DNA of 64,000 bases from Zygnema cylindricum (lineage: Eukaryota > Streptophyta > Zygnematophyceae > Zygnematales > Zygnemataceae), in contig JBBHKE010001317.1 of the NCBI GenBank assembly GCA_037447655.1, positions 92,501-156,500 on the forward strand. Direction: 5' to 3'. The notes beneath the pieces were generated by a model. It saw only the letters and a list, made by a program, of their open reading frames with translations. It was not told the DNA's origin and made no database searches. Numbering within the stretch: position 1 is the stretch's first letter; each line of letters opens with the position of its first letter. Shown one piece after another: positions 18,418-64,000 of this stretch. A program made the position numbers and the translations under genes.

Positions 18418-18429
18418 TTCCCCCAAAGA

Positions 18430-18775: not shown

Positions 18776-19079
18776 ATATCTCATGACTCTCTTGGTTCCC
18801 TCCCAGTTTCTCATTCTTAGATCATTAAGACTTTACAGACGACTCCAAATGGTGCCTATATGTCCGGCCTAGTACAATTTTTAAAGTAGATCAAGCTTCC
18901 TAAAACCTCCTTGTAAGGAATAAATTTCATAAACTCTCTCTTTTGGACTCATTTGATCATGAAGATTATCACACTTTCTTCACTCCCATCACTTATCTTC
19001 TTCAAATCCATGGGAGTGGTAAAATTTTTGTTGGCATAACTAGATTTGTAGGTTATTTTCTAGGTCAAAACATATTAGT

Positions 19080-19575: not shown

Positions 19576-19599
19576 TTTTCCCATTTTGTGCCAACCCAC

Positions 19600-22029: not shown

Positions 22030-23128
22030 TAAAGTCTACTTTATGGCTAATAAGGGTAGCAAAGGAATGTTTAGCCTTACCCGCGTAATGAAAAGAAGAA
22101 TGCTTATTATGTTGGTGTCCCAAAGTTGATGATTTGGCATAAGCGGTTGGGGAATGTGCATCTTGATACGTTGAGGGAAATGAAGAAGCTTGGTGTAGTA
22201 GAAAGCAATCAAATTGGGATAATGAAATAGTGGATGACTATCATGGATGTACCCAAGGTAACGCTCTTAGACTTCCTTTTCCCAAAGCCGCCACATATAA
22301 GGGTGAGAAAGAACTAGATCTAGTACACACAAATATCTGAGGACCAACAAAAAGACGTTCAATTGGAGGGAAAAGGTTTATGCTGACAATAACCAGTGAC
22401 TAGTTAAGATACTCTAGTGTCTATTTTCTATAAACAAAGTGTGAAACACCAACTTACTTCAAAGAATATATAGCCTGGAGTGAGAAGTTGCATGGAACCC
22501 CCATTAAGAGAATAAGAAGTGATAATGGGGGAGAGTATACCTCTAACAAGTACGAGGAAAACTTGAGGGATGAAGGAGTTCAGCATCAAAAAACTGTATT
22601 GTATAATCCATAACGAAATGTGGTATTTGAGAGGTTCAACCAGACACTAGAAGATAGTGTTTGGAGTATATTGGCCGACAAAAAAATAGGAAAAAGGTTT
22701 TGGGCAGAAGCCATGAACTGTGCTAACCACATTAAGAATAAAGTCCTTACCTTAGCCGTAAAAAGAATGACACCTAATAAGAGATGGGCTGGAAGGAAAC
22801 CACATATCTCTCACGTTGAAGTATTTGGTACACAAGTTTACGATCTTGATACGGATAGGAAAAACTAGAAACTAGATGCTAAGGGAAATCCTCTATACTT
22901 TGTAGGATATGATCAAGATTTCCAAAGATATAAAGTCTATGAATCAATTAAGCAAGATTTCATTATGGTCAAACACCTAGTTGTCATGGATGAAGGGAAG
23001 TCATTAGACTCATTCAATCAAACCAAAAAGATAAAAGTACGTTTTGAGTCGGAAAGTGAGGAGAACTCGATTTTTCCCGAGGGGGATATGAATGAAACAC
23101 TGATTTCAGATTCAGAGGAGATCCAAGA
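22030..23128 (+). pseudogene. Copia fragment C (integrase and linker, F family)
   Basis: Starts within the pre-integrase region (KVYFMANKGSKGMFSL) and carries IWHKRLGNVHLDTLREMKKL, SDNGGEYTSNKYEE and ERFNQTLEDSVWSILADKK, then a linker with VVMDEGKSLDSFNQTKKIKV. These match element F. The catalytic Glu region reads RNVVFERFNQT, so conserved residues are lost, and there are many stops. It is cut at 23128 by the D LTR and begins at the end of the J LTR. Confidence 0.85.
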
Positions 23129-31810: not shown

Positions 31811-32541
31811 CGTCACCCTTATCGCGAAGGTCTTAACGAAACGATACGCGTATTATTTTGGTACAAATTTATATTGTAACACGTCGGCACACTTCATTTA
31901 ACATATTACGGACGAAGTGAACATGAAACGTGCGATACCGCACGAAATAAAGTACTGCACGAAATGACATCGAATTTCGACGGACGAATTGAAAGTCGTT
32001 CGCGATCGACGGCTCGCGGAGGAGCCGGAATTTCGTAGTGGTTTTTGGTGGTTTGCGAAGCATATGTCGGCGTGTGACACGTGGCGAGGGATGATTGGAC
32101 AGCGGGTATTACAAGGGAGCAACTTTGGTTGAAGAACTGACACGCGTCAGCGGAGCGGCCATGGCGTACTAAGGCTGTACAAGAAGTAGAGCGGTACCTA
32201 TACCATCTTGTACCTTAGAGTCTTTTGATTGGATACGTACACTAGTAGTAAGCTTAGAGAGGTAGTTGAGGACTTAGAATATTTTTTGTGTTTGAGCCTC
32301 TCTCCCATAGAGCACTTGTATATATAGGCCATCTTTTCCAACCTTAACTTAATGCTCGAGTGAGCAATTTCGGTGATTCTTTTTGCTCTGGACTCAAGGG
32401 AGTCCAGGCTACACAAGGGTGTATTCGGTGAGTGTTTTTGCGTCCCAGGGTGGGACTTATTCTATGCCAAAATCAAAAGTGCAAATACTATCCTAGAGGC
32501 TTCACATAAGCTGGACATTATGTGTACCAATGGAGGTCACA
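31811..32541 (+). repeat. Copia F 5' LTR, 5'-truncated
   Basis: Matches 37148-37864 of the 3' LTR. The cut at 31810/31811 lies inside the tRNA-like module. It contains TGTATATATAGGCC (TATA box, about 32318) and the hairpin GGACTC-AAGG-GAGTCC about 75 bases downstream; ends GGTCACA. Confidence 0.88.
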
Positions 32542-33720
32542 AAATTACAGGTTATAAGCCCACCCTCTAGGGTGCCCATTTTCAATGAAACAGGGTTTAT
32601 TTATTGGGAAACCATGATGAGGGGTGCATTGTTTGAAAAACGGCTATGAGGCATTATGAGTGGCCGTGTCCGTCAGCCATCCACAAAATTGGGAGTTCCA
32701 CCAAGGTTTCGAGGATCTCTGATCACGGGAGGATCAGTGGGGGCACAGGTGGTAGAGGATGTTCGAGAAAGCATCGTGTCGGACACAGGGAAGGAGAAGG
32801 GGAAGGAGAAACTCACACCGATGCCTTCTATATCAGATCCGGTAGCAGATGTTCAAAAAACCGAGGCTAATGATAGTGAAATTTGGGATTTTAACAATAC
32901 CGTGGCGACTCATTTTATTCTCGAGCGTCTTACTCAAGTAGTGCCTACGCCTCATCTTCATGTGGACAAGGCGGACGAGTTGTGGGAGGCTCTTGTCAAC
33001 ATTAAGAAGAGTGGTACAATTCAGCAGTAGAAGGAGGCAGATCAAAGGGTACAGGCATATGTGAACAAAAGGGGAAAGATGTTAGATTTTTGTAACGACT
33101 TGGCCGGGTTATTTCAGGAGTTGGAGAGTGCACGGAAAAAGGGAGACCGAGAAAGAGAAGGTGAAACTTTGTTGATGAAACTCCCAGATGAGTATAAAAA
33201 CATTGTTAACAGGTTTGAAGGCTAGCCAAATTATCGATGGATCAGGAACTCCGTTGTGGGAATGATTGTGGTTCAAGAATGCACAATTGAGATTCGAAGA
33301 GGAGGAAAGAGTGTTCAGGCATTAGCTGCTGGGACTAATTGGGGGGATAAGGATTCCAAGAAACCTTATGGAAACTTTGGTGGAGGAGGAAGAGGAAATC
33401 AATTGGATGGATCAGGATCGAGGCCTCCGGAGGGGCTTTGTCACTTTTGAAAGAAGTCGGGACATTACATGGCGTAGTGCACTAAACTTACAAAGTTGAG
33501 ATTGAAGGAGGAACAGGTCGAAAAACTAGCCGCAAGGAAAAAAAAGGCATTTGTGGCAACAATAGTCATCGAAAAGGATTCCGATAAGGACGATAGAGCA
33601 CTTCACCTAAACGAGGAGCTGGAGGGGAAAGGTGAGCCGAAGATATCAAGGAGGCAAAAGTGAGCTTTCGGTGGAGTAAGAGAAGCTCGTGAAGAAGGAT
33701 AGATATTTGATTCAGGAGCC
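32542..33720 (+). pseudogene. Copia F gag
   Basis: Starts in frame right after the LTR (QVISPPSRVPIFNETGFIYW). It has stops at about 32645, 33028 and 33223, and keeps IWDFNNTVATHFILERLTQV and GETLLMKLPDEYKNIVNRFE. The zinc knuckle is damaged (CHF-stop-KKSGHYMA-stop-C). Related to the gag of G. Confidence 0.85.
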
Positions 33721-36942: not shown

Positions 36943-37864
36943 TGTTGAAAAAGGTATTTTATAGTCTTGTTCTTTTTGGTCTTCCAACAACCCTTATACT
37001 TGTCGTAGTCACTAAGGACTTGCAGGCAGCCATGGCTGTCTCATGCAGGTAAGAAGAGTGAACAGAAGCTTTAGTTTGCTACAAAAGTTAGGCGGTCCCT
37101 AGTAGGACTTGATCCGGTGACCTCCGGATAATAGCCGTACGGCGCAGCCGTCAGCCTTATCCAGTAGGTCTTAACGAAACGATATACATATTGGGTTTGG
37201 AACAAATATATATTGTAACACATTGGCATACTTCATTTAACTTATTACGTGATGAAATGAACATAAAACGTGCGGGACCGCACGAAATAAAGTACCGCAC
37301 AAAACGACATCGAATTGAAAATCGTTCGTGATCGACGACTCACGGAGGAGCCGAAATTCCGTAGTGGTTTTTGGCAGTTTGCTAAGTATATGTCGGCAGA
37401 TGACACGTGGCAAGGGATGATTGGACAGCGGGTATTACGAATGGAGCAACTTCGATTCAGAAACTAACAAGCGTCAGCGGACCGGTCATGCCGTACTATG
37501 GTCGTACAAGAAGTACAGCGCTACTTGTACGTTCTTGTACCTTACAGTCTTTTGATTGGATAGGTACACTAGTAGTAGGCTTAGAGAGGTAGTTTAGGTC
37601 TTAGAATATTTCTTGGGTTTCAGCCTCTCTCCCAAAGAGCACTTGTATTTATATGCCAACTTTGGTCAGCCATAACTTAATGCTCGGGTGAGCAATTTCA
37701 GTGACTCTTTTTGCTACGGACTAGGAATCCACGCTACACAGGGGTGTATTTGGTCAGAGTTTTGGGTCCCACGGTGGGACTTTTCTATGCCAAATTCAAA
37801 AGTGTAAATACTATCCTAGAGTCTTCACATAAGCTGGACATTGTGTGTACCAATAGAGGTCACA
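36943..37864 (+). repeat. Copia F 3' LTR
   Basis: Starts TGTTGAAAAAGG, ends GGTCACA; 922 bases. It contains the tRNA-like module (37098-37168, minus) and a TATA region GTATTTATATGCC. Confidence 0.88.
37098..37168 (-). other. tRNA-like module in copia F 3' LTR
   Basis: On the minus strand TGGATAAGGCTG (A-box-like, 37163-37152) and GGATCAAGTCC (B-box-like, 37115-37105) are about 36 bases apart, between short complementary flanks (CCTACT and AGTAGG). Confidence 0.55.
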
Positions 37865-37872
37865 GAATTTTA

Positions 37873-38470
37873 AAGTTTCACAAAAAGAAAAATTGTAGAA
37901 ATTTTACCCCCATGATCCATGTTATGTTTTTTGCATCTCACACTATTTCAAGCCTATTAAGTTTGACAAGTATAACGACTTTTTTTTTTATCAACCAAAA
38001 TAGAAAAACTGTATTTGGTTTGTGTTAATTTATAGTTTTTTGTATATACCAAATACATTAACTAAAACTTTTTGATCTTATTTAATTGTTAATACAAAAA
38101 ATGAAATATCCGATTAAATTTTTGACAAAAGACATGTATAACAAAAAAAAACAAACAAATGATGATAACTCTTAGTTGTTGCTTTTGTTCTGTTTTGCAG
38201 TATAAAAAAACGAAAAAAATAACAAATTTTACCCCCGCCATCGATGTTATCGTATTTCTATTTTAAAATGTTTTAAGCCTATTAAGTTTCATAAACACAA
38301 CGACTACATTTATAATCGACGATGATAGATTAAACTATATTTGGTTTGTTGCGAGTTATAGTTTGTTATATAAACCAAAAAACATTAACTAATTTTTTTT
38401 AGCCTAACGTAATTGCTGATAAAAATAATGAAAATAAAATCATATACATATAGAATTAGTATATTTGTAC
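37873..38470. repeat. Tandem repeat of about 325 bp at the Crypton R1 3' flank (two units)
   Basis: Units start near 37873 and 38198. Shared landmarks are ACAAATTTTACCCCC-like, CAAGCCTATTAAGTTT, TATTTGGTTTGTGTT and AACATTAACTAA. Confidence 0.85.
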
Positions 38471-38901
38471 ACGATATCCAACTTAATGATGAAAACACAT
38501 TGGGTAGCAAATATTAAATACTTTATTGTGAATATTAATTAAAATGAACATTTTGTGAAATATAATACAAAAAACATTAAGTTTGACAACATTAAAGGTT
38601 ACACGTCTTTTTTTTATCAAATAAAAAAACAAGTAATGTAATCTTAGGGTTTGAACTAAATAAAACAAAAAAACCAATAAAATATACACATATAATGGGC
38701 CGAAAATAATAAAACTATAAACAAACTTATTAACCGAGTTTGAATTTCAAAAAAAACCTGCTAAAATAAACATTATAGGTTTTTACAAATTTCAAAAGCT
38801 ACAAAAAACACATTTATAACAAGTGCCAAAAAAGTCCCACAAAGTTCAATTTTTTTTTTTTTGTTTTCAGTCGCTATTCTCTTTGATATGTCGCGCATAC
38901 T

Positions 38902-41900
38902 CTATTTGTTCACGAATTGGCGATCTTGCAACCTGTCCAATGCTGTAATTAATGTTACCTCATTTTCCTCTACAATTCTACCAACATCTACCAAGATGAC
39001 ATTCCAATTATAAAACTTTTGAGATTCTCCTTTCTTTCAGCTAGTTCCACTTGATTCCAACTTCGCGATGGAAGGAAGTCCACCTATACCATCATGGTAT
39101 GCTTTCCACACATCTTTTATCAGTTGTAGTCGAGCTCTAATTTGTGTCATCAAAGAAACTTGATTTGAGTTTTCTTGTAATGGAACAGGACGTGGAAATT
39201 CGTCAGTTGTTCTTGTCGTTTCTACAGGGGTTTCATGTTCTTGGCCTTCACTTCGATAAAAATAACGTGCACGAGTCCCAATTCCTATGATTCATTTTCT
39301 GATGGTCTATTTTGATTTTCATAGGGTTTTTTTTCATGCAATGTATCTCCGTGACCCTTCATCATGTGCATAATAGGGGTTAACTTTTCATCTATAATAC
39401 ACATTTTCTCTTTGAAACTTGAAAGTGTCTCTTTTACATAACACATTTCCTCTCCCATGAAATCAATATTTGTTCCACAAGTTTGACTCCACATAAATAA
39501 CGAATCAACTGATTTTCCCACCTTTGGGATCGTCATCGGCACATTTGCTTCGGCATCTGCAATTGCAGCCCACATGTATGATGCTTCAAGACATGTTTTT
39601 TGACTTCAATTTTGAACGAGACCACAAAGAATAATAGAACTGTTTGTGCTTGAAGATAGGAAGATCGAAAATATATCATGGAAAAAAACATGGTCTTGTA
39701 AAAACACAGTTTTAAGCCATAATGTGTTGTGAAGGAAATTTCGAGCGCTTAAAATCTAGTTCAGATTAAGAAGCTCGAGCATTCTTCTACACAAAAAAAA
39801 AATTGTATGCTTTAATAGACGAATAAGTCATTAATTATAAAACAAAAAAAAGAAAAATAATTCATTAAAAGTAAAACTAAAAAAGGAATGTCACAAAGAG
39901 AGAAAAAAAGAAAAAAATAAAAAAGAGGAGAGAGAAAGAGAGAAAAAGAAAAAAAAAATATTAAAGGAAAAAAAACATAGAAAAATCAACATGAAAGCAG
40001 GACAAATTTTAACAAAATAGAAAAACAATTTAAATGACAAAAAAAAATGGAAATAAACAAAAAACAACAAAAAAAAGGTCAAAAAATTGAACAAAAACAA
40101 TTATATACAATAAAAAATATATATATAAAGAAAATGTGACGAACATAAAAACACGTAAGATTACTTGACATAAAAAAGTAATGATATAAATGTTGACAAC
40201 TTTTTTAAAAATACCGCTGGTAGCTCAACATATGTCGTTTGGACCCACGGCCAAAACATAGTACAAAGGGTAGTAGGGGGTTCCACTCTAGAATGAGGTA
40301 GAAAATATTTCTTGGAGTTGTTTTCGTGGCCACAGGCTTGAAGTACAATGTCTGTTGGTAAATCTGTGACGCATGAATATGAGAAGTGGTCGGATGTCCA
40401 ACGTCTCGTCACATTGATGGCTTCTTGATCATCACAGAAAAATTTACCATAAAAAAATCAAACTTGGAAAATTAGAATATAGATAACAAAACTTCATTAT
40501 TTCAAATAAATGCATGATAAAAATCAAATGTTGAGTTTACAAAAACGCACCCTCTTGTCGCCAACATCGTTGCTCTTTGACGATGTCTTGTATAGGTTTT
40601 ATGAGATAAGGAAATATTTTTGGTTTTGAATGCATTTTTTATTTACAAGAACTGTTTATTGTAGCAAAGAGGCTGTATGAACAGTGTTTCTTTTCCTTCT
40701 TGGTCTTTCGCTAAAAATCTCCCTTCCGTCAAGGGTTCCCCGTACTAGGTTTTATTTGTCGAAAAATTGGGAGTTGCATTTTCGTTTGTAGCTAATTCCC
40801 ACATCCAAAAAAACTGTTGGGCCACAATACTTACCGGACAAATAAGAAAGTCTAAGTGACGCATGCATCCGATAAATTATGCACGACCATTTTGCTGATA
40901 ATAAACACCATTAAAAAAACCCAATAAAATTAGTAAAATTTGTTTTGGGTTATTTACAAAACATTACGAAAATACACATTTTGTTAAAGCTTTAGTTTTA
41001 TGGATTACTTACTACCTTAGTTTTCCCATTTCTTGTAATCATCACCGAAAACATAACCCTTGTCCGGCCCTAGATAAGGAATATCATACGAAAAAACATC
41101 CGCTAACTGAGCAATTTTGGAATCATCACCACAACTGAGGCACGTATGGTTCGTGATAAATTGTATCATTCAAAAAACAAAAGAAAAACAACAAAGAGAT
41201 AAAAAATAACAATGTTACAAATATAATGTGAGCTTCATTTAAAAATAATGTACCTTTTCTCCCAAAAAACAAAAATTACATCACCAAAAAAATTAAAAAA
41301 ACAACAGAAGCAGAACAAATGAAAATGTGACAAACATAATGGGAGGTTTATTTTAAAATAATGTATATTTCCTCCCAAGAAACAAAAATTGCACATTATA
41401 TTCGTCCCTGTTTTAAATAGAATTTGGAGTTAACCCCTAAAAACTAGTAGAATCTCTAAACTACTTGTTAAAATAAATGTAATATGAAATCAAAAAAAAA
41501 ATCCAAACCGTAAAACAAAAAAATCAAATTATAAACTGAAAAAAAATGCACTCAATAAAATAAAGTGTAAATTAAAAAACAACATGAATCAAAAAAATAA
41601 AATACGAGATTTAGTAAATTTATCAATACATTCCTCATTTGAATGCTGGTATATGGTTCTATCCCAATTTTTTTTTCTTTGTGCTTTCCTTTGCCCAACT
41701 CTAACCAAAATATTGAAAATCCTTTGTAATCTTTGAGAGATTACGCTTCTTGTATGCCTTTCTAGCAGTCTTCATAGTTATTTCTTTAAATATTAGTTGT
41801 ATTTTTTTTAGACTCCAGTAAAAGTTTTTGGGTGATGTTGTTGTCTCTAAGGTTTTGACCCTCCCTCCTTTTATGGCTAATTGCGTTTTTTATGAGTCTT

Positions 41901-42255
41901 AAAGCCCTTTCACCTATTGTATTAGTGTAGTATAGCTTATGTTTTCGTTATTCTCTAGTAGTCAATTAACCCTATGAGGTGTAATTGCTACATTTGGGTG
42001 CGCTTGTGCACTCTAAAAATTTTCATACTGATTTAAACCAACTTGATAAGCTTGTGTTATGTTTGGGTTACGTTGTTTTAATGTATCTCTGATGATCCGT
42101 GCTCGATTTGACTCACTTTATTGTGGGGCGACTTTTATTCCTACATTGTTATCGTCATCTTCTAAACGAACAATTTTTTGACAGTTTCCAAATGCGAGCT
42201 CTGAGACACTACTAGGTAAAATTTGGAAAATTCCCTTACGCCTAAAAAACATCGA
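38902..42255 (-). pseudogene. Crypton-type tyrosine recombinase with GCR1_C-like domain, copy R1
   Basis: Minus-strand blocks in order: a stop-laden frame (42250-41630) with RIIRDTLKQRNPNITQAYQV, like a core-binding domain; 41160-41026 with YLGPDKGYVFGDDYKKWEN; 40864-40560 with MRHLDFLICPVSIVAQQFFW and NFSTNKT-stop-YGEPL, matching the RH-D-CP block of Cryptons. Then KTYTRHRQRATMLATRG (the HxxR box, with H to Y and R to H) and an apparent intron to DDQEAINVTRRWTSDHFSYS, CVTDLP (catalytic Tyr replaced by Cys). YFLPHSRVEPPTTL and MFWPWVQ follow, then a coiled-coil-like part (39575-39285) and a GCR1_C-like end (WKAYHDGIGGLPSIAKLES, stop at 38902). Cryptons cut and paste DNA through a Tyr recombinase; this copy is dead. 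Family call from motif order, not a search. Confidence 0.8.
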
Positions 42256-42380
42256 AAAGAAAAAATATATAAATAAAAAAACAAAAACATAATAAAAAGA
42301 AAATAATAAAAAAAACCTTTTAAAAAGTTTAATTTAAAAGAAAGGAGCTAAAGAAGAACAAGTAAAGGAAAAAAAAAATG

Positions 42381-42429
<49 letters not shown>
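42381..42429 (+). repeat. Poly-A tract of 49 bases
   Basis: An uninterrupted run of A preceded by AAAAAAAATG. It may be a retroposition tail or a collapsed assembly repeat. Confidence 0.9.
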
Positions 42430-42431
<2 letters not shown>

Positions 42432-42545
42432 GTAAGTTTAGGGTTAGGCTGTAAGATTTAGGGTTAGGTTGTAGGATTTAGGGTCAGGTTGTTGGATTTA
42501 GGGTTATGCTGTAGGATTTAGGGTTAGGTTGGGGATTGAAGGTTA
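42430..42545 (+). repeat. Telomere-like minisatellite, 20-bp unit
   Basis: Five to six units of TGTAGGATTTAGGGTTAGGT with small changes. Each carries TTTAGGG, the plant telomere word, but the spacing is 20, so it is not a plain interstitial telomere. Confidence 0.85.
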
Positions 42546-43480
42546 CGTTGAAAAATTTAGTTGTAGGTTTTAACACTAGATACGTTAAAACGTAAATCAA
42601 AACCTATGGTTAAAGCGCACGTAATAAATAGATTAATCTACGTCCATATTTAATTACGTTTTAAAACGATACAATTTGAAACGAAATCATTTGCGATTCA
42701 TACTAAAAAAAAGTTTGTTCACAATTAAGCGTACGAAATTCGCGCGTAAAGTTAATGTACATTGGAGAGTACGGATTGTACGGAATTCGCGCTGAGAGGT
42801 AATCTATATTGGAGAGTACGCAATTCAATATTACCACGTACGGACATCCGCGAGGAGAGTTGATCTACACTGAAAAGAATAGAATTTCACTTTCGACTGT
42901 ACCGAAATCAATAAATAACGTCACATTTTGGAGTAAGTAAATCGTACGCGCGGATTTTTCTGGTACTTTTTAAAATTTGAATATAACACAACTTCTCCGC
43001 TTTCAAAATACCTTGTCCTCCTTTCAAAATACTACTTCAATGATGATTGTAGGATATTTTTATACTCTCCGCATAGGATCCTCATTTCACATAGCGTACT
43101 AAAAAAAATTACACTTGCGGCGCTAAACGACGACAATATGACTGTACTTTTTTGTTTTGTTTTTAATTTCATAGGTGAATTGTTCTCACGTGACGCGTGG
43201 CTAATTTTTTAATTTTGTTTTTAATGCCAAAGGTCAAGTATTCTCACGTGACGCGCGACTCAGTTGTTCGACGGGTTAAATGGTAGTGCTTAAAGTGTGA
43301 ACGTTGATAATATTATGTAGATATTTTGAGCCGCGAACGCGATTTACATGTTTTCATGCGACGCGCATGACGCTATTTGTGGTGAATGGTCTATATGAGA
43401 ACGATGTAAGTATGAACACTTTGTTTTTTTTGTTTTTTTTGTCCATCTAGCCTAATCAGCGAGGAGGCTCCTAAAAGAAA
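42546..43480. other. Gene-free stretch
   Basis: No coding sequence is recognised. Several short repeats occur: GTACG-AATTCGCG followed by GGAGAGTACG (three times, 42720-42870) and TTCTCACGTGACGCG (twice, near 43190 and 43240). Confidence 0.5.
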
Positions 43481-43489
43481 TTCTCTGCG

Positions 43490-43985
43490 CTTCACACGAT
43501 AATTTTATATCCTTATCAATAACTGGGAGGGATTTACATTACCCTGGCAAAAAACTCCTCGAAGGTCTTTGTCGCCTACCAAATAGGATCTCCACCCAAT
43601 GCCTAATACCACTACAGTATACTGCTTCGCTCCTCCCTGAAGGTCTTTGCCGCCTACCAAATAGGATCTCCACCCAATGTCTAATACCACTACAGTATTC
43701 TGCTTCGCGCAGAGGGCAGACGGATCTCCCCCAAATGTCTAATACCACAATTATATACTGCTTCGCGCGGAGAGCAGACGGCGACAGAGGGTCGGTACAG
43801 GCCGAAACGATCAGACTCGTGGAGGCTAGAGGAGAGTAACGCCGACCGCAAGATAACCTCGCGGAGACTCTCGCAGATGCGGGTTCGACAAATTTCGAAT
43901 TGGCCCGCGAAAACGTCATCGGGCTAGGTATACCTGTCTTAGCTGGCGGCGTACGACGTCTCGTGGGAGGACACAAAAAGATTAA
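43490..43985. repeat. GC-rich island with a 78-bp tandem repeat
   Basis: Distinctly richer in G and C than the AT-rich flanks. The unit AAGGTCTTTG-CGCCTACCAA starts at 43562 and again at 43640 (period 78, so frame-neutral); a third, partial unit follows at about 43722 (CCAAATGTCTAATACCAC, CTGCTTCGCG). The minus strand stays open for 145 codons, repeating HWVEILFGRRQRPS, but matches no family I know. Confidence 0.8.
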
Positions 43986-45049
43986 TAGATGTTTTCGTGG
44001 TGGGCTATGTCAAAGCTCGACTAAAACAAAAAACGATTAAAACCAACGCACAAAGGCGTCTCAAATTAAACAAAATAAAAGACGTGCTCCTTATTGCCGC
44101 TATGTTATCGTTACGCCTATATCGTCGATCTCCTCGATACGCTACTACTCAAAATAGAGTAGTTTGGGTAGAATTTCATTAGACGAAAAGTGAGGTTTGT
44201 TACTGGGGGACGTACTTTTTCGTCCAAGGTCGTACAAAGCCGTACCTTAATTTTTTTTTTGTTAGACGAAACATCGTTACTGGAAATCTGTTGGGAGGCT
44301 CCAACGATGTAGGCGTAATTCATGGTTGTTGGATATTCTAATTTTTGAGATCCGCAAAGCAATAGTGCACATCATCCAGTGTGAAGATATTCTCCTCGCG
44401 AGAAGAGTTGCACGATACTGGTCGTGTACCATTGGTACACATTAAAAAGAAAAAAAATATCCACTTTGAACAAGCGATCACATGCTTACACGTCGTACGG
44501 GCCATGTGTTGCCTTCCTAGGTGGATGCAATTGAGCTAAAAATATCCTCGCACGCTCTGTCTGACATCCACCGACATTCAAAGTTTGTTGCGACCTTCAA
44601 AGTTTGCCGCAACCACTAAAGTTTGCCGCGTTTGTTTGCCATTCCGTTTCTAAATTTTAATTTCCATTTTCAAAATCAAAAACTGGCCACAAACTTGACA
44701 TAGAAATCATTAACTACCTCCGGTCGTACAGATATTTTGTTTTGACTTTCCGTTTTAAGATTTTTTTAAGATTTTCAAAATCTGGACTCTAACCTATGTG
44801 GCGCCAATCATAATTGAGGAAGGTTTGTTATTGGCTCAAAAAAATGGAGGGGACTTCTAATAAACGTTGCCAGTAGACTTTTGCGTACAATTACCAGGAT
44901 AGCCTAATGAAATTCTACCCTTAACCACTCAATTTGTTGTTTGCTTGTCGGTTGGTCCTTAGAGGCCAAAAATGTGTTTTAATTAAAAAAAAATTTGTCC
45001 CCATCGCCAATATATTTTTAATGTTGCTCAATTAAATATATTTTTACAA
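43986..45049. other. Gene-free stretch
   Basis: No gene is recognised. A short repeat AAAGTTTG(T/C)(T/C)GC lies three times at 44580-44630. Otherwise AT-rich. Confidence 0.5.
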
Positions 45050-46140
45050 TTGCACAATACTAATGCATTAATGATAATATAAAACACCCTTTATATATAA
45101 TATAACACAAATTAAAAAAAAAAAAAACATTAGCTATCTGATTAAATCTTAGACAAAAGGCATTTATAACAAAAAAAAACCAAATAAACGATAAGAATAG
45201 TTAATTGTTGCTTTTATTTTGTGTAATAGTATCACAAAACGAAAACATTTCACTCGCACGATCGATGCTATGGTTTTTGCTATCTTACAATGTTTTAAAC
45301 CTATTAAGATTGACAAACACAACGACTACATTTTTAATCGACCATAATAGAGAAATTGTATTTGGTTTGTGTGAAGTTATGTTTGTCATACATAAACCAA
45401 AAAAAATAACTAAACCTTTTTTATCTAACGTAATTAATGATAAAAAAAATGAAACATTTGGTTAAGTATTCGACAAAAGGCATTTATAAAAAAAAACCAA
45501 ATAAACGATGATAATATTTACCACTTGCTTTGATTTTCTGTCATAGTATCACAAAGGAAAAAATGTTGGAATTTTACTCCCGTGATCGATGTTATTATTT
45601 TTGTATCATACAGTGTTTCAAGCCTATTAAATTTGACAAATATAACGACTTTATTTTTTATGGACCATAATAGAGAAATTGTATTTGGTTTTTGTTACTT
45701 TATAGTTTGTTGTATATACCAAATACATTAACTACAAATTTTGGATCTAACGTAATTGTTGATACAAAAAATAAAATATCCGATTAAGTATTCGACAAAA
45801 GGCATGTATAACAAAAAAAAAACCAAATAAGGGAAGAGAACTCTTAGTCGTTGCTTTTGTTTTGTTTTGTAGTATCAAAAAACGAAAAATATGACAAATT
45901 TTACCCCCACGATCGATGTTATCGTTTTTCTATCTCACAATGTTTCAAGCCTATTAAGTTTCATTAACATAACGACTACATTTTTAATCGACGATGATAG
46001 ATAAACTATATTTGGTTTGTGTTGAGTTATAGTTTGTTATATAAACCAAAAAACATTAAGTAAAATTATTTAGCCTAACGTAATTATTGATAAAAATAAA
46101 GAAAATAAAATCATAAACATATAGAATTAGTGTGTGTGTA
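45050..46140. repeat. Tandem repeat of about 317-326 bp at the Crypton R2 3' flank
   Basis: Unit starts (TAGTATC) lie at 45227, 45544 and 45870, with part of an earlier unit from about 45050. Same unit as at 37873-38470. Confidence 0.85.
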
Positions 46141-46576
46141 CATGATATCCAACTTAATGATAAAAACACGTAGGGCAGCAAATATTTAATACTTTATTTT
46201 GTGAATATTAATTAAAATGAACATTTTGTGAAATATAATACAAAAAACATTAACTTCAACAACATTAAAGTTTACACGTCTTTTTTTTAACAAATAAAAA
46301 AACAAGTTATGTAATCTTAGGGTTTGAACTAAATAAAACAAAAAAACAAATAAAATATACACACATAATGGGCCGAAAATAATAAAACCATAAGAAAACT
46401 TATTACATGAGTTTGAATTTCAAAAAAAACCAACTTAAATAAACATTATAGGTTTCTACAAAGTTTCAAAAGCTACAAAAAACACATTTATAACAAGTGC
46501 CAAAAAAGTCCCACAAAGTTCAATTTAGATTTTTTTTGTTTTCAGTCGTTATTATCTTTCATATGTTGCCCATACT

Positions 46577-47560
46577 CTATTTGTTCACGAATTGGCGATC
46601 TTGCAACGTGTCGAATGTCGTACCTAATGTTACCTCATTTTCTTGTGCTATTCTACCAACTTCTACCAAGATGACATTCCAATTATAAAACTCCTGCGAT
46701 TCTCCTTTCCTACAACTAGTTCCACTTGATTCCAACTTCGCGAAGGACAGAATTTCACCTATACAATCAAAGTATGCTTTCCACACATCTTTTATCCTGT
46801 GTAGTCGAGCTCCAATTTGTGTCATCAAAGAAACTTGATTTGAGTTTTCTTGTAATGGAACAGGACGTGGAAATTCGTCAGTAGTTGTTGTCTTTTCTAC
46901 CCGGGTTTTATATTCTTCGTCTTCACTTCGAGAAAGATTACGTGCAAAAGTCCCAATTCCCATGGCTGATTCATTTTCTGATGGTCTATTTTGATTTTCA
47001 AAGGGTCCTCTTTCATGCAACGTATCTCCGTGACCCTTCATCATGTGCATAATATGGGTTAACTTCTCATCTAGAATACACATTTTCTCTTTCAAACTTG
47101 AAAGTGTCTCTTTTACATAACACATTTCCTCTCGCATATATCAATATTTGTTCCACAAGTTTGACTCCACATAAATAACGAATCAACTGATTTTCCCACC
47201 TTTGAGATCGTAATCGACACATTTGCTTCGGCATCTGCAATTGAAGCCCACATGTCTGATGCTTCAAGACATGTTTTTTGACTCAATTATGAACGACGAC
47301 CACAAAGGAGATTGTAACTATTCGTGCTTTAAGATAGGAAGATCATGAATTAAATCTTGACAAAAATATGGTCATGTAAAAACACAGTTTTAAGCCATAA
47401 CATGCTGTGAAGGAAATTTTGAGCGTTTAAATCTCGTTTGAATTTAGAAGCTTGAGCATTTTTTGGCACAAAAAAACATTTGTTTGTTTTAATAGAAGAA
47501 TAAGTAATTAAGTATTAAAAACAAAAGTATAATTCATTAAATAAAAAAAACTGAAATGTC

Positions 47561-47591
<31 letters not shown>

Positions 47592-48656
47592 AAAAAAACA
47601 ATTAAAGGAAAAAAAAAAACTTAGAAAAAACAACATCAAAGCATGAAAAACAATTGAAAAATTAGAAAAACAATTCAAAAGACGAAAAAAAACTGAAATA
47701 AACAAAAAAAATAAAAAAAAACAAAAAAAGTCAAAAAATTGAACAAAAACCATTATATACAACCAAAAAATAAAATAATATAAAGAAAATGTGACGAACA
47801 TAAAGCACGTAAGATTACTTAAAATAAAAAGTAATGATATAAATGGTGAGAGTTTTTTTTAAGCATACCGCTGGTAGCTCAACATATGCCATTTCAACCC
47901 ACGGCCAAAACATAGTACAAAGAGTAAAAAGGGGTTCCACCTTGGAATGATGTATAAATTATTTCTTGGTGTTGTTTTCATGGCCACAGGCTTGAAATAG
48001 AATGTCCGTTGGCAAATCCGTAATGTATGAATATGAGAAGTGGTCGGATGTCCAACGTCTCGTCACTTTGATGGCTTCTCAATCAGCACTGAAATATTTA
48101 CCATAAAAAAAATCAAACTTGGAAAATTGGAACATAGATAACAAAGCTTCACTATTTCAAAAAAATGTATGATAAAAATCAAACGTTGAGTTTACAAAAA
48201 CACACCCTCTTGTCGCCAACATCGTTGCTCGTTGACCACGTCCGGCATAGGTTTGATGAGATAAGGAAATATTTTTGGTTTTGAATGTTTTTTTTATATA
48301 ATGAAACTGTTTATTATGGCAAAGAGGTTGTATGAACATTATTTATTTTCCTTCTTCGTCCTTCACTAAAACTCTCCCTTCCGTCAAGGGTTCCCCGTCC
48401 CAAGTTTCTTTTGTTGAAAAATTAGGAATTGCATTTTCATTTGTAGCTAATTCCCACATTCAAAAGAACTATTGGGCCACAACGCTTACTGGACTAATAA
48501 GAAAGTCTAAGTGATGCAAGCATCCAATAAATTCAACACGACCATTATTATATGACGGATAAAAAACATTATAGAAAAACCTAATAAAATTAGTAAAAAT
48601 TGTTCTGGGTTATCTACAAAACATTACGAAAATAAACATTTCGTTAAAGCTTTAGT
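46577..48656 (-). pseudogene. Crypton-type tyrosine recombinase with GCR1_C-like domain, copy R2 (5'-truncated)
   Basis: On the minus strand: LHHLDFLISPVSVVAQ, MWELATNENAIPNFSTKETW and GEPLTEGRVLVKDEEGK; SHQTYAGRGQRATMLATRG (HxxR box as YxxR). An apparent intron then runs from a GTGTGT donor at 48209 to TTTCAG at about 48093. RRWTSDHFSYSYITDLP follows with the catalytic Tyr kept, then CTMFWPWVEMAYVELPA. The C-terminal part is open from 47137 to 46577, with MCYVKETLSSLKEKMCILDE (helical) and IKDVWKAYFDCIGEILSFAK, SCRKGESQEFYNWNVILVEV, matching the GCR1_C pattern W-x-E-x-x-x-G, WRK, FYxRR-x-I. Stops and frameshifts elsewhere show decay. Confidence 0.8.
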
Positions 48657-48657
48657 A

Positions 48658-49960
48658 TGGGCTCCATTGCCACAGAGAATTCGTAGGTCCAAAGGAAGCT
48701 AATCTAGATAGTGCCGACTCCAACTTGATATAAACCCAAATGACTGACCCCTTGACAATCAGCACCCCAATATAGCTCCACCCTTGTGAAATAACACTTT
48801 CTGTGTGCTCAGTTTCACCACAGAATGCAAAGTTATAATATAAGATTTGGACACATTTACCCACTTTGACTTTCCCTAAGAAATTCAGCCACCCAAGCAA
48901 GAAAAAACTATAACCGACTACTCCCCCATGTAGCTTGGACTCCCTTGAGCCCGTAGCAAAAAGAATCACTGAATTTGGTCAACTGAATTGATTGTTATGG
49001 CTGGCCAAAGTTTGCCATTTATACAAGGTGCTCTCTAGGAGAGAGGTGGCTACCTACCCGAAAAATTCTAAGTCCTAAACCCCTCTCTAAACCCTCTAGT
49101 ATTGAGGTACGGACCAATCACATTACTGTATAGTACATAAAGGTACAGATGTCAATGTACCTTTTGTACGGTCATCGTACGACATGGCTAAAAAGTCAAC
49201 ACATGTCTTATCCGGATTCGCTCTTATAATCCCGAAATTCGTGCTGTCAAATATCATCTCTCCACGTGGCTCTAGGTCATGCCACTTCCAAAAATCGGTA
49301 CCCTACAAGAAAGTACAAGTGGCGAAGTACTTTGTGTACGTACAATGTACGAAATCGCCATAGTGCGATATTTGTCACTTCCGGATTTGTTTTCTACCGT
49401 TCCGGAAATTTCGTAAGCCCGTATGATGTTGCCACGTGTCATCTGGAGTGGCGGCGTCTGCAAATTGCCAAATTGTCCTTTTCGCGATGTCAGCGCTAAC
49501 CACGGCCGTCCGATTTACATCGTTATTTAAAACGGACCGTCGAAATAAATGTCCGTACTATTTATTTCAACTGGTACTAAAAGTTTAACTTATTCTATGC
49601 CCCATATACCTTAATCCAGTTTAATGGAAAACCCTACCGGTAACTATATAAATATATGTCAAACCCTCTATGTCCTAGCACTAGTCCTAGGCTAAATGGA
49701 CAAAGCTAACGACTGCGGGATGATTGACGGCCGGTAGGTACCAGGAACAATTCCTGGGTCCATCAAATATAGTTTTAGTAAACATATCTATTATCTACTA
49801 CTGTCTCTCTGGAGAGCTTAGGCAGCCATGTGCTCTAGCTCCCTCTCCAGCCTTTAGTGACTACAACAATTGTGGGGGCTTGGAGAAGGAGGTTAGAGGC
49901 AGACTGCCTCTGCTATTTTTCTATCCTAAAACAGACCTAGAAAATACATAAATATCAGCA
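48658..49960 (-). repeat. Copia G 3' LTR
   Basis: Forward sequence starts TGGGCTCCATTGCC and ends AAATATCAGCA. It carries a TATA region (48999-49030 on the minus strand), the GGGCTCAAGGGAGTCC hairpin, a GTAC-rich U3 and the tRNA-like module (49688-49760). Confidence 0.9.
49688..49760 (+). other. tRNA-like module in copia G 3' LTR
   Basis: TAGGCTAAATGG is A-box-like and GGAACAATTCC B-box-like. CCAGG-AACAATT-CCTGG forms a perfect 5-bp stem with a 7-base loop, the geometry of a T arm. Antisense to the element. Confidence 0.55.
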
Positions 49961-51838: not shown

Positions 51839-51845
51839 AATCCTA

Positions 51846-53146
51846 TAGGCTCCATTGCCACACAGAATTCGCAGGTCCAAACGAAGCTAATCTAGATAGT
51901 GCCGACTCCAACTTGATATAAACCCAAATGACTGACCCCTTGAAAATCAGAACCTCAATATAGCTTCACCCTTATGAAATAACACTTTCTGTGTGCTCAG
52001 TTCCACCACAGAATGCAAAGTTAGAATATGAGATTTGGAAACATTCACCCAATTTGACTTTCCCTAAGAAATTCAGCCACCCAGGCAAGCAAAAATTCTG
52101 ATGGACTACTCCCTTGTGTAGCGTGGACTCCCATGAGTCCGGAGCAAAAAGAATCACTAAATTTGGTCAACTGAGTTGATTGTTATGGCTGGCCAAAGTT
52201 TGCCATTTATATAAGGTGCTCTCTAGGAGAGAGGTGACTACCTACCCGGAAAATTCTAAGTCCTAAACCCCTCTCTAAACCCTCTAGTATTGAGGTACGG
52301 ACCAATCACATTAATGTATAGTATATAAAGGTACAGATGCTGGTATACCTTTTGTACGGTCATCGTACGACATGGCTAAAAAGTCAACACATGTCCTATT
52401 CGGATTCGCTCTTATAATCCCGAAATTCGAGCTGTCAAATATTATCTCTCCACGTGGCTCCAAGTCATGCTACGTCCAAAAAACGGTACCGTACAAGAAA
52501 GTACAAGTGCCGGAGTACTTTGTGTATGTACAATGTACGAAATCGTCAGTGCGACATTTGTCACTTCCGGATTTGTTTCCTGCCGTTCCGGAAATTTCGT
52601 AAGCCCGTATGATGTTGCCACGTGTCATCTGGAGTGGCGGCGTCTGCAAATTGCCAAATTATCTTTTTCGCAATGTCGGCGCTAACCACGGCCGTCCGAT
52701 TTACATCGTCATTTAAAACGGACCGTCGAAATAAATGTCCGTACTATTTATTTCGTCCGGTACAAAAAGTACAACTGTTTCTATGCCCCATATACCGTAA
52801 TCGCGTTTAATGGAAAACCCTACCTGTAACTATATAAATATCTGTCAAACCCTCTATGTCGTAGCACTAGTCCTAGGCTAAATGGACAAAGCTAACGACT
52901 GCGGGATGATTGACGGCCGGTAGGTACCAGGAACAATTCCTGGGTGCGTCAAATATCTTTTTAGTAAACATATCTATTATCTACTACTGTCTCTCTGGAG
53001 AGCTTAGGCAGCCATGGGCTCTAGCTCCCTCTCCAGCCTTTAGTGACTACAACAAGTGTGGGGGCTGGGAGAAGGAGGTTAGAGGTAGACTGCCTCTCCT
53101 ACTTTTCTATCCTAAAACAGACCTAGAAAATACATAAATATCAACA
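51846..53146 (-). repeat. Copia G 5' LTR
   Basis: Forward sequence starts TAGGCTCCATTGCC (TG changed to TA) and ends AAATATCAACA. The TATA region reads CTTATATAAATGG on the minus strand (52215-52203). Thirteen GTAC words lie between 52295 and 52770. Confidence 0.9.
52873..52945 (+). other. tRNA-like module in copia G 5' LTR
   Basis: Same as at 49688-49760, including the CCAGG-AACAATT-CCTGG arm. Confidence 0.55.
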
Positions 53147-54300
53147 GTGCAAGCAAACTTGCAGCTTCAGGGGGGGTGAGAGGCAAGGAGAAAGACTTTA
53201 TCATCAAAATTTTCCATTCCAAGCGTTTCACCCAAATCCAAGGATTCCTTAGTGGGGGGGAGCCGAGGCTCACAAAGGGACAGCCTGGTGGAAGTTGTCA
53301 ACAGCATCGTCGTAACAAGAGGAGGAGAAGTAGACCCACTAGTAGGGCTGGAATTGACATCTCCCGCTGGGGTGGACCCCCGTAAGCATGGGCAGCAGTG
53401 GAACCCAGGGAGATGGATTGGACCTTGGGTGAGCAGCTAGACCCTCAGAAGAAGGCCCCGCTCTCCAAATTGTTAGAGGAGAACAAATAAGTGTTCTCAT
53501 GTTCAGATACCGACGTTGGAATTTACAAAGGTACCCCCTTTCGTATCGATTTGATAGACAGCGATCGTTTGGCAAAAGCAATATCCACTCATCTTTAAGG
53601 AATAATGATTTATCACGGCAAAGGTACCTCCCTTGTGGAGGCATGATTAGTGAAGGAAAGTACTAGACTCCATGGGTTTGCGTCCCCAACCGTTTTTCCA
53701 CCCAAGAAGGACTCGTCTGGGAATACAGTAGACTTTCGGATGTGTGGAGACTACCAAATGCTCAACACGGCAACCGTACCGCACCGATACCTAATGCTTA
53801 CCCTGGAACAGATCTTCGACTCGCAGGTCGGGGCTACCATTTATTCCACTCTAGATATTAAGAATGGGTTTAACCAAATCGAATGGAGCCAAACCACCGG
53901 GAAAGGACAACATTTTGGGCGGGGTCCAAGATGTATGAATGGCTCTACATGCCTTTTGGGTTGAAGAATATACCAGCGAAATCCCAACGGCCAATGGACA
54001 AGGCGCTTCGGGGAATTAATTGTGCAGAGTGCTATATCGACTATGTGATTATCTTTTTAAAGACCTTCGAGGAACACTTGGAGCACATACAGATTGTACT
54101 TCGGGCCCTCCAAGCAGGGGGCTTGAAATGTCACGAAGGTAAGGGAATTTTTGGGGTGCAAAAAATTATTTACCTGGGACATGAAGTTACTCTCGGGACA
54201 GTGGGTCCCCATATGGTCAAGGTGGCAGCCCTTGATGCACGTCCCTCTCCGGAAGACGTTTCTGCACTCCTCACGTTTTTAGGCCTGGCCAACTAATATC
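53147..54300 (+). pseudogene. Gypsy H reverse transcriptase
   Basis: Readable pieces: GTPFRIDLIDSDR, TRLHGFASPTVFPPKKD, RMCGDYQMLNTATVPHRYLM, ATIYSTLDIKNGFNQIE and YEWLYMPFGLKNIPAKSQR. The active site reads YIDYVIIF instead of YIDDIIIF, so the second Asp is lost. The end reads KIIYLGHEVT. A one-base shift near 53895 and further stops break it. The upstream 300 bases may be the protease linker but match nothing clearly. Confidence 0.88.
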
Positions 54301-54990
54301 AGAGATTCATCCCGTGTTTAGCAGTCATGCCCAACCTTTGAACTAGTTATTGCGGAACGACAAAGAGTGGCAGTGGGCGGAAGTACAACAAATTTCATTC
54401 CAGTTTATGAAGGATCCCCTTAAACAACACCTTGTGATCCGGATGCCCGATCATTAGAGGTCTTTCCTCCTATATTTTGATTAGAGCAGGTTTAGATTGG
54501 GAGATGTTTTGGCTCACTTGGATGATGTTCGGGCCGAATATGTGGTGGCTTACGCCAATAAAAGCAATAACCGAGCGGAGGGGAATTACAACAGCTACCA
54601 CGGAGAGTTACTTGCAGCTTTTTGGGCAATCCTACATTTTCGACCATATCTGTATTGGGTTCATTTCACTATGATTACGGATCACCAGCCGCTCAAGTGG
54701 ATTATGAAAAACACTCAGCTAACCGGCAAGCTAGCTTGATGGGTTTTAATATTGGAGGAATATGATTTTAGCATAATCCACCGGGCCAGGGAAATCCATG
54801 GGAACGCCGACAGACTTAGCAGAAATCCTAACCTTTCCACCAAAGATTCTATCGGGGCCCGTCACGATGAGGATCCCAAAATCAGTTTAAGACTTATTCA
54901 GGCCTCTTGCAACTTTCTCTGCAGATGTGGAGGGGTAGGCGGCGATAGGGGCCGGGCGTAAGGATATTTGGATCGACCCCGATTCCCTTC
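54301..54990 (+). pseudogene. Gypsy H RNase H
   Basis: VVAYANKSNNRAEGNYNSYH, GELLAAFWAILHFRPYLY, FTMITDHQPLKWIMK and the end YDFSIIHRAREIHGNADRLS are the usual gypsy RNase H landmarks. Frameshifts near 54480 and a stop near 54737. Confidence 0.88.
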
Positions 54991-55044
54991 AGTCCATCCA
55001 TCAAGGTTCTCCTTTTTCCCATTTGTCTGGAGCTCCACTATCCC

Positions 55045-56462
55045 GTGTTCAAACCTGAATGGCGACGTATAATTGGAAAGGGGCATCCTAATCCGAAAGT
55101 GGACAGAAGGGGCGAGGAAAGTGGTTTATCCCCTGGCGGACTAGGAAACTCTTATTTTTCGACTCCACCAGCAATGTGGCCATTTTGGGCGGAAACGGAC
55201 TACCTGATTGGTTACAGGATCGTACTAGTGGCACGGGTTGCAGACCCTAGTCAACCAGATTGTGTAGACATGTCCTTCCTATTACCGAGTGAAAGAAGCT
55301 TTCGCAAGAAGGGAGGTACCCAACTTCATTCCCTTCCCATCAGGGGAATGTTTTATCAGTGATCTCAAGACCCATTGGATCTTGTACCCACTAGCAGGCG
55401 GGGGAACCGTTTTGTATTGGTGATGATAGAGCATTTTTCCAAATGGATAGAATTGGTGGTTCTACCCTGGAAGAAGTCTAGGGAAATTGCAGACGCATTC
55501 TTGCAAAGAGTATTGTCCCAATTTGAGGCACCTGCCGAAGTTATGACCGGCCAAGGCTTTGAATTTGCGGGAGAATTCTCCAACTTGTTGGAATTTTGCC
55601 TTATCAACCACCGGTTGACCAGCCGAGATCACCCGCAAGCCGAGGATTTGGCAGAAAGATGCGTGCAGACAGTGAAGCGATCACTACGGAAATATGTTGT
55701 GGAAGAGGATTTAGGAGAGTGGGACAGAAGGGTGCCTTGGATTGCCATGTAATTGCCATGGGGTACAGATTCAGTCGGCAAGCTTTCCTCCATACCAAAA
55801 GTCCTTACTTTATCATGTTTGGACGACATCCCATCCTGCCCGGCGCTGCCTCTGCTCAATCAGTGGTCCTTCTGGAAATGGATAACTGAGGGACGGTCAA
55901 GAAATTGATTGCCGACAGGGCCAAGGTATTCCAACGTGAAATGCCTCTCGCCATGGGGAACTTACAAGCAGCTCAGCACAAGGATCAACTCTGGTATTCT
56001 CAACGCCGGAGCGGGAATTTTGTCCTCGGCAATAACGATTTATGCCAGGGGATTTCGTGTACATGATGCAACAGAAGAAGGACACTCAGGATATTTCAGC
56101 GGAGCGGGTGATTTTAATGGTGGTAGAGGTTTCCAACAAGGGTGTTCTAACACTAGAGGGGGAAGGATAGTCGTAAAATCAAAGAGAATCAGATCAATGT
56201 GGCCCTTTGTCACCTCCTCGGTTTGGAAGACGAGCTGACTTTCCACCTTACCTATTCTGCTGACCCTCCTTCCTCTACCTCCGCCTGCCTCCGGTCATCT
56301 CAGTCGGGCCCTATACTGGTTTGCGATCGATGCGACCAGTGTTTGTATTAGTCCTGCCTCTTATCCTTTTGGGACTCTCGTCTTCAACCCTCTACCCTCT
56401 TGTTTTGCGCGAACTGCGAATTGAGCAGGTATTATATTTATTTTCTTAGTCCCGATGAATAA
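55045..56462 (+). pseudogene. Gypsy H integrase with C-terminal PHD-like zinc finger
   Basis: Integrase core reads LDLVPTSRRGNRFVLVMIEH, FSKWIELVVLPWKKS, VMTGQGFEFAGEFSNLLEFC (the catalytic Asp of TDQG changed to Gly) and DHPQAEDLAERCVQTVKRSL (the catalytic Glu region). It continues through FIMFGRHPILPG and, in another frame, RVILMVVEVSNKGVLTLEG. The last 60 codons, up to a TAA at 56460, read GPILVCDRCDQCLY-stop-SCLL, then LLFCANCELS, which fits the second half of a PHD finger with its His changed. No chromodomain is seen. A polypurine run GAGGGGGG follows. Confidence 0.8.
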
Positions 56463-56469
56463 GAGGGGG

Positions 56470-57922
56470 GAAAATTCGGACATCATCCCACACCTTTCCC
56501 TTTGACCTCATGGGGAAAGGGGGATGAGGAGGGGTTATCTTTTCTTTTCTTTTCCCTTCGCTTTCTCCCGCATCCATCCATTCGGCATGTCCCTTTCTTC
56601 CCTACGTTTGCATTCATGTCACCGTGAGGGATTGAGGCAGAAGGGGGCATGACCATTTCCCAGGGAGGCATTGGCATTTGGGATTCTTTGCAGCTCTCCC
56701 TTTGGACAACTCCGTGGATCATGGACCGTTCCTCTCTAATCATCAAGCACGCTCGACAGCTGTGAAACTCGTTTGCCTTCCTGGCACACCTACATATATC
56801 ATGGATTGTTAGAACCCTTTTTTCCCGTACGGTCATCAGCATACAGATATTGATGTGTAATAGACCGGACCGGATTCCTCTATTTTCCACACGGAGCGCG
56901 ACGCAATTTGGTTTACTTCTAACAGAGGCCGGACGACCAAGTTATTCCGCTCCCAATATTACAGTTCGCCACCTGGAAGCAGTTTCCCACTTCCCTAGAG
57001 GAGGGTACATTGTGGATTTTCACGCAACTTTTGGGATTGCAATCTAGATTATGCTGTTAGACGTCAATCGGACTTTTGTTTAGGTTTAACCGGCTTCCGG
57101 TTCATTAATTACCTTAAGTCCATGTTCGGCATTTCTGTGCCACTTGAGTACTTTAGACAGAATTAGTGGATCCGATTTGGACTCTCAGTTCGGGATTTAG
57201 CTGGATTATAAAGTATAACTTTTTTCCCTGAGTGTGGTAAGGCCTTATTTGTCCTATGTCTGTTCGATAGCACTTGCTCTCCGCTCATTGGCTCCTTGCT
57301 TTGCGTTGACCTTTTGGATTTTAAACTGGACAAACTCTGTTGTATAAGGCACTTGGGGTTACAGGAGACACGTTGTTGTTTTCACTACTGTCTCCTAAGA
57401 AAAACCTTAGAAAATTCTAGCAAACTTCTTTTGAAGAACTTTTGTTTGTTATGTGATTGCGACCCTACTGCCATCTTGGTTTGCATTTGTCCTTTGTGGA
57501 AATCGTAGTCCGGTTGGGTAGTTGGCACTATCTTTTTTTTTTGGGCGATTTTGGACTTGTGGCTATTTGATACCGAGAGGGGTCTTGCCGGTTCCGGGTT
57601 GCGGATACGGGAGTTAAGGAGGACTTTACCTGTTCCGATGTCTTCGGGAGAGATTTCGTCTCCTCTTGTTGTTAGCGTTGCGTTTGGGGTATGTTGAGCT
57701 CGTTTGCTATCTTTCCAAATTCTATCTTTATCTTTATCTTTTCTAGGGCAAGGTGGTATTGTTAATTCTAAGACAGCCTATTCTTCTTTTATTTTTCCGT
57801 TATTTTGCGTGAAAGTGCCTTTGTTCCCTCTTTGGTAGACCTTTTTGGGCTTCGGTTGCGTTTCAGCCGGGGTGAGCTACCAGAATCTTTTGGACCAGAA
57901 CAGTGGGATTTGAGAGAATATT
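56470..57922 (+). repeat. Gypsy H 3' LTR (right edge uncertain)
   Basis: Follows the polypurine run. Its first bases (AAAATTCGGACATC) match a second copy starting TGTTAGAAATTAGGACATC at 57923 but lack the TGTTAG. A TATAAAGTATAA stretch lies at about 57207. The right edge is set by the next copy and may be too far. Confidence 0.55.
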
Positions 57923-58213
57923 TGTTAGAAATTAGGACATCAGCCCACACCTTTCCCTCTGACCTAATAGGGAAAGGGGGAAGACGAGGGGGCATTTTTT
58001 TTTTCTTTTCCCTTCGCTCTCTCCCGCATCCATCCATTCGGCATGTCTATTTTTTCCCTATGTTTGCATTCATGTCACCGGGAGGGATTAGGGCAAAAGG
58101 GGGAATGACCATTTCCTAAGGAAGCATTCGCATCTGGGATTCTTTGTAGGTCTCCCTTAGGTCAACTTCGTGGATCATAGACCTTTCCTCTCTTATCATC
58201 AAGCGCGCTCGAT
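57923..58213 (+). repeat. Second gypsy H-type LTR start, truncated
   Basis: About 290 bases repeat 56470-56758 (CCCACACCTTTCCCT, CCGCATCCATCCATTCGGCATGT landmarks), then similarity stops at GATAGGAGAGG. Confidence 0.85.
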
Positions 58214-61200: not shown

Positions 61201-61250
61201 TTGTAGCATAGTTGGGAGAGGGGTGGAACCTCAGTTTAAAAAATTGATTG
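58214..61250. other. Unrecognised sequence
   Basis: No known gene family is recognised. Long but unconvincing open frames run on both strands (for example minus 59371-58952 and 60396-59938), with composition like decayed repeat. The part 58720-58830 resembles 7940-8080. The end (60760-61130) is rich in GGAGG-type purine words on the plus strand. Confidence 0.5.
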
Positions 61251-63975: not shown

Positions 63976-64000
63976 GGGGGGGGGGGGGGGGGGGGGGGGG
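63976..64000 (+). other. Poly-G run at the window end
   Basis: Twenty-five G in a row that interrupt an exon. Most likely a read or assembly artefact at a contig or gap edge. Confidence 0.7.

Follow-up and report, generated by a model that had tools for sequence, protein, structure and literature searches.

The window, by which we mean the whole 64,000-nucleotide stretch of the Zygnema cylindricum assembly that was analysed, contains on its minus strand an element (copy 1, 43615-37869) that is very probably a decayed member of a CryptonF-type family of tyrosine-recombinase transposons. A second decayed copy (copy 2, 48656-43752, minus strand) lies head to tail with it, and two mini-elements stand between them. 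We found the following features.

43752..48656, minus strand: copy 2; 3′ end at 43752 from comparison with other copies
46577..47140, minus strand: copy 2, exon 5, open stretch of 187 aa; homologue of the exon that carries GCR1_C in copy 1
45135..46107, minus strand: copy 2, 3′ tandem array of about three 327-bp units (Tandem Repeats Finder)
43694..43751, minus strand: 58-bp mini-element with the 5′ and 3′ ends of the family, adjoining the 3′ end of copy 2
43616..43693, minus strand: 78-bp mini-element with the 5′ and 3′ ends of the family, adjoining the 5′ end of copy 1
37869..43615, minus strand: copy 1, very probable CryptonF element; 5′ end at 43615 from comparison with other genome copies
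41634..42252, minus strand: copy 1, exon 1 equivalent (start codon to exon end), by eye against spliced L012 and L015
41013..41167, minus strand: copy 1, exon 2 equivalent; NDC10_II in joined piece, boundaries by eye against L015
40551..40891, minus strand: copy 1, exon 3 equivalent (MRHLDFLICPV); NDC10_II in joined piece, boundaries by eye against L015
40215..40434, minus strand: copy 1, exon 4 equivalent (RRWTSDHFSYS...FWPWV); NDC10_II at 0.00037 in the raw ORF
38902..39786, minus strand: copy 1, exon 5 equivalent; GCR1_C at 23.2 bits in 39291-38902, boundaries by eye against L015
37869..38436, minus strand: copy 1, remnant of the 3′ tandem array (unit about 327 bp), from self-comparison

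Each outer side of this array is cut at the start of a copia LTR. The 3′ part of copy 1 is lost at 37869 (LTR pair 31811-32546 and 37149-37869), and the 5′ part of copy 2 is lost at 48656 (LTR pair 48656-49960 and 51844-53146). In the self-comparison of the window, the two copies agree at 86.7% over 3157 columns (45545-48656 against 37874-40996). Stops and frameshifts interrupt both copies, and both are dead. Their pairwise dN/dS of 0.57 is weakly below neutral (39/1000 neutral simulations were as low) and mostly reflects decay. About 0.76 kb of copy 2 (window 44164-44921) has no counterpart in the genome copy L014, owing to either an insertion in copy 2 or a loss in L014. The compared copies share the 3′ tandem array, with its unit of about 327 bp. 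The sequence GGTTATAAGCC or GGTTATGGGCC follows the two copia LTRs of the window (32550, plus strand; 51835, minus strand) and is also present at a third place (20819, minus strand); it resembles a half-tRNA-Met primer site.

The preliminary description had read a row of short blocks at this locus as a Crypton recombinase followed by a GCR1_C domain. Sequence inspection confirms that the blocks all lie on the minus strand and in the claimed order: MRHLDFLICPV within 40876-40745 (frame 2), RRWTSDHFSYS, LPT, YFLPHSRVEPP and FWPWV within 40457-40161 (frame 1), and WKAYHDGIGGLPSIAKLES within 39291-39037 (frame 0). When the six frames of 38902-42255 were read through stops and left unjoined, Pfam returned NDC10_II (0.0018) and GCR1_C (0.0052), both on the minus strand, with no other family at E≤0.1 and nothing at all in the three plus frames. 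Chance resemblance was rejected, because these two families are the only matches in the six frames and both fall on the minus strand. Two of the ten raw stop-to-stop pieces matched either family, both below the cut-off. Three short joined pieces scored 23.2 bits for GCR1_C (cut-off 23), 30.4 bits for NDC10_II (cut-off 26.3) and, in the third, 17.2 bits (below the cut-off). The joined 527-aa read of copy 1 reached 59.7 bits (E=3.3e-16) for NDC10_II and 20.1 bits (E=7.8e-4, below the cut-off) for GCR1_C. The frames of the joined reads of copy 1 were chosen by the analyst at a handful of joints; a choice at so few joints should not be able to yield a gain of this many powers of ten in E. The joined recombinase pieces of copy 2 matched NDC10_II at 6.4e-11, while its three raw minus frames matched neither NDC10_II nor GCR1_C and its C-terminal exon alone had no Pfam match. 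An AlphaFold2 prediction for exon 5 of copy 2 (186 residues, single sequence) was uninformative, with a mean pLDDT of 48.5. A protein search with the joined read of copy 1 yielded 3489 candidates with common words, none of which scored. Searches of viral contigs found relatives neither of the Crypton nor of one copia ORF, a degenerate motif search matched three viral contigs, searches of prokaryote genomes found no Crypton relative, and PDB searches gave nothing except one irrelevant antibody match (E=0.79).

Decay is visible in several exon equivalents of copy 1. The exon 1 equivalent has stops and one frameshift; its piece, partly read out of frame past the frameshift, has no Pfam match and is given no weight. 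The exon 2 equivalent, where the recombinase domain starts (the SRGDDSR region in other copies), is frameshifted. The T-H-A-G-R region in the exon 3 equivalent is altered, and comparison with other copies shows a Cys in exon 4 at the position of the presumed nucleophile Tyr. The GCR1_C domain lies at about 39135-38920 within the exon 5 equivalent.

Uninterrupted copies of the gene exist elsewhere in the assembly. L012 and L015 each have five exons separated by four GT-AG introns, and the spliced genes encode 773 and 758 residues, respectively, with no stop; the two proteins are 87% identical. Both spliced proteins match NDC10_II (2/2, best 3.2e-41) and GCR1_C (2/2, best 1.1e-9) in Pfam, and at E≤0.01 they contain no further family and no reverse transcriptase or other transposase. 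The Crypton assignment is thus borne out, since both domains, in the right order, lie far above the cut-off in two uninterrupted copies. Splicing by given boundaries was done for these two of eight sequences, and both are uninterrupted; the other six have stops inside the matched stretches, some of them possibly arising from an out-of-frame query. L012 and L015 carry the motifs SRGDDSR, THAGR (as THAGRG), GRW and SYSY. By motif spacing, we assume that THAGRG and SYSY hold the putative H-x-x-R and nucleophile Tyr of the catalytic tetrad R-H-R-Y. Between L012 and L015, the coding sequence is 89% identical and the four introns are 79-87% identical. Over the whole gene dN/dS is 0.187, and for residues 208-500 it falls to 0.073; 0/1000 neutral simulations were as low. 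The gene is under purifying selection, and the family has been active recently enough to keep uninterrupted copies.

The family is abundant in this assembly (352,776,454 bases, 352.8 Mb, in 2689 contigs). At least 50 GCR1_C matches are present at E≤0.001, 50/50 of them over the cut-off, and 0/14 control genomes have a match. The 5′-end pattern, allowing two or fewer mismatches, occurs 89 times, against a single occurrence of the control pattern read backwards. The preliminary description had reported one copy, at 38902-42255. The copy is real and the interval lies within the element, which is longer than this (43615-37869), and parts of the family occupy at least tens of places in the genome. 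Fifteen regions of 10 kb were taken, and nine of them were compared mutually and with the window copies. Six contain both ends (L014 508-7296, L015 1091-8005, L017 152-6932, L020 225-7011, L019 812-8531 and L012 1681-9659), and the compared copies are 6.8-8.0 kb long. These sharp ends are common to copies with differing flanks; the exception is L017 and L021, which have a 3′ flank in common and probably go back to a single insertion whose surroundings were duplicated. Most of the displayed copies have GTAGTGGTATTAGACATTGGG as their 5′ end, with an RTACC-like core in front of it, and GCGAAGCAGTATACC or a near variant as their 3′ end. RTACC, which precedes the 5′ end, and ATACC, at the 3′ end, form direct repeats of 5 bp, or of 6 bp with the following G in many copies, and no terminal inverted repeats were seen by eye at the ends shown. 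In L021 (2400-5250, the copy on C1116) there are extra exon 5 pieces, one of them on the opposite strand.

L014 and L017 agree at 97.0% over 6807 columns, and divergence among main-family copies goes up to about 20%. L025 and L026 contain both GCR1_C and NDC10_II of a second, divergent lineage in the same genome, and L022 and L023 contain the GCR1_C of that lineage. Horizontal transfer from a fungus or an oomycete, as opposed to descent from an old plant lineage, is possible, though we lean against it. Patchy distribution fits such a transfer, and CryptonF transfer between fungi and oomycetes has been reported (available text of PMC3212892). On the other hand, the second divergent lineage fits long residence in this genome, as does the divergence of up to about 20%, with which an old transfer is also compatible.

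The decay of the resident copies gives indirect evidence on the host. CHG methylation is a trait of the plant lineage. We counted C-to-T changes by context in the repeat pairs of the window, with overlapping pairs omitted from the totals, and found 116/676 at CG, 104/480 at CHG and 272/2536 at CHH. CHG exceeds CHH in 11/11 window pairs having CHG sites, and CG exceeds CHH in 8/12. Among eight offsets tested for a G in 12 window pairs, +2 alone stands out (113/554 vs 289/2686, p=2.3e-9), the next being +3 (p=0.051). C-to-A/G changes in the window pairs show a slight rise at +2 and +3 (p=0.028 and 0.043). The Crypton pair of the window alone shows the +2 effect (13/42 vs 68/556, p=0.0019), with p=0.045 at −1. 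The genome copies (six pairs, ten blocks) show it as well, at 149/986 vs 567/7610 (p=3.3e-14, a value that is too small because sequences recur in several pairs), and all other offsets give 0.05 or more; in 2/10 of these blocks CHG does not exceed CHH. This excess of CHG C-to-T decay points to plant-type methylation of the resident copies.

An ordinary host would be an alternative: the assembly, or these contigs, might be fungal, oomycete or from another protist, or be contaminants. This is unlikely. CryptonF is indeed known from fungi and oomycetes (available text of PMC3212892), and no host gene was recognised in the scanned regions of the window. There, Pfam found only retroelement families (10 chosen ORFs, 54010-64000 on the minus strand, 13000-22990 on both strands), four ORFs from the locus flanks had no Pfam match except doubtful ones to one tandem-repeat ORF, and Rfam and tRNA scans of the window gave nothing. 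Against such a host stands the rise of C-to-T specifically with G at +2, in window repeats and Crypton copies alike: copies with CHG decay would have decayed while resident in a genome of the plant type, and contamination does not fit this well. The T content of copy 1 also argues against it, being 47 and 62% in two introns and 26% in three exon pieces. The decay and the T-rich introns lend indirect support to the earlier characterisation of the surroundings as plant-like nuclear DNA, and we regard the host as probably a plant on these grounds.

We also investigated where the elements are inserted. From 30 listed loci of the 89 and the six 10-kb copies, 33 distinct flanks were obtained, and 32 were left when one element-element joint was dropped. 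TACC stands directly before the 5′ end in 18/32 of these flanks, compared with 2/1024 at other offsets of the same flanks; it matches at 3 or 4 of 4 positions in 25/32 and at fewer than 3 in 7/32. These flanks are not independent, since several of the matching insertions are at a like place of one repeat. A tandem repeat at L055 741-1500 and in L058 is present in many flanks, and several Crypton copies entered it at a like place. When the two flanks of the insertion on C1541 are joined, their alignment to four other loci passes through the joint. Of these, L045 (91%) and L057 (87%) are empty and have the core once, L013 (74%) runs through without a break but is a weaker match, and in L047 (74%) the site is occupied. 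In the window, the order head to tail is copy 2, the 58-bp mini-element, the 78-bp mini-element and copy 1, and each joint consists of a 3′ end followed by a 5′ end. Among the loci compared, the mini-elements occur only in this array. Recombination at short cores would be expected to produce a head-to-tail array with mini-elements of this kind.

A domesticated Crypton-derived host gene with pseudogenes, like yeast Gcr1 and Ndc10, is very improbable: CryptonF domestications are known in yeasts (available text of PMC3212892) and purifying selection alone would also fit a host gene, but the many copies with sharp ends, different flanks and a target core speak against it, and the ends and empty sites contradict it.

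A mobile CryptonF family could work as follows. The spliced recombinase of 758-773 aa would recombine RTACC with ATACC and so excise the element in circular form, and the circle would integrate at a TACC-like core in the genome. After insertion, the target core would be left of the element and the element's own ATACC right of it, without further target duplication. Recombination at the cores of resident elements may then build head-to-tail arrays, such as that of copy 2, the two mini-elements and copy 1. The head-to-tail joints and the clean empty sites are consistent with movement as a circle, and catalysis by the putative tetrad residues is predicted from the motifs.

We compared the family with known systems. 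The defining paper (Kojima and Jurka 2011, PMC3212892), in its available text, places CryptonF in fungi and oomycetes only, describes a recombinase with GCR1_C and, in most elements, 6-bp terminal direct repeats, and lists in Table 1 Cryptons of all groups from fungi, animals, oomycetes and a diatom. The family described here resembles CryptonF in having one protein with a tyrosine recombinase and GCR1_C, in its short terminal direct repeats (5 bp, RTACC/ATACC, vs 6 bp there) and in the lack of any other kind of transposase in the two spliced proteins. Its apparent differences from published CryptonF, as described, are the plant-type methylation decay in its host, the length of 6.8-8.0 kb, the 3′ array of 327-bp units, the TACC core and the array with mini-elements. 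Yeast Ndc10/Cbf2 and Gcr1, which gave the Pfam families NDC10_II and GCR1_C their names (PMC3212892, in the same text), are single host genes without a catalytic site; the present family consists of many copies, with ends and target sites. DIRS-type retrotransposons also use a tyrosine recombinase (available text of PMC4157794), and in the plant lineage are said to be known only from green algae (available text of PMC9033089). A DIRS element was rejected, as no reverse transcriptase matched in 2/2 spliced proteins or in the six frames of window 38902-42255.

Our literature search, in which subscription journals were mostly outside coverage, found no report of CryptonF in a plant. The word Crypton is absent from the available text of a review of land-plant transposons (PMC9033089), and a plant genome review calls Cryptons relatively rare in eukaryotes (available text of PMC11630846). 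A sour-cherry table has 'Crypton-H/A' at up to 0.05% (available text of PMC10722297), so the label Crypton has already been used in plants; this entry is probably an automatic annotation. The present family belongs to a known class, in a host where it was not expected, and this analysis adds a description of its target core and array structure.

We think it likely that plants harbour a recently active CryptonF lineage (perhaps two in this genome) that is mobilised by site-specific recombination at TACC cores, forms arrays in which full and miniature elements follow one another head to tail, and is a target of the CHG methylation pathway of plants. If true, this is a transposon class with no plant report in the literature searched. 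The known range of CryptonF would then take in a genome showing plant-type methylation, in which there are two coding copies free of interruptions, together with a defined target core and empty sites. The finding is relevant to the question of whether Cryptons were already present in ancestral eukaryotes or have spread by transfer, and it provides a recombinase that can be tested directly for site preference in a genome of this type.
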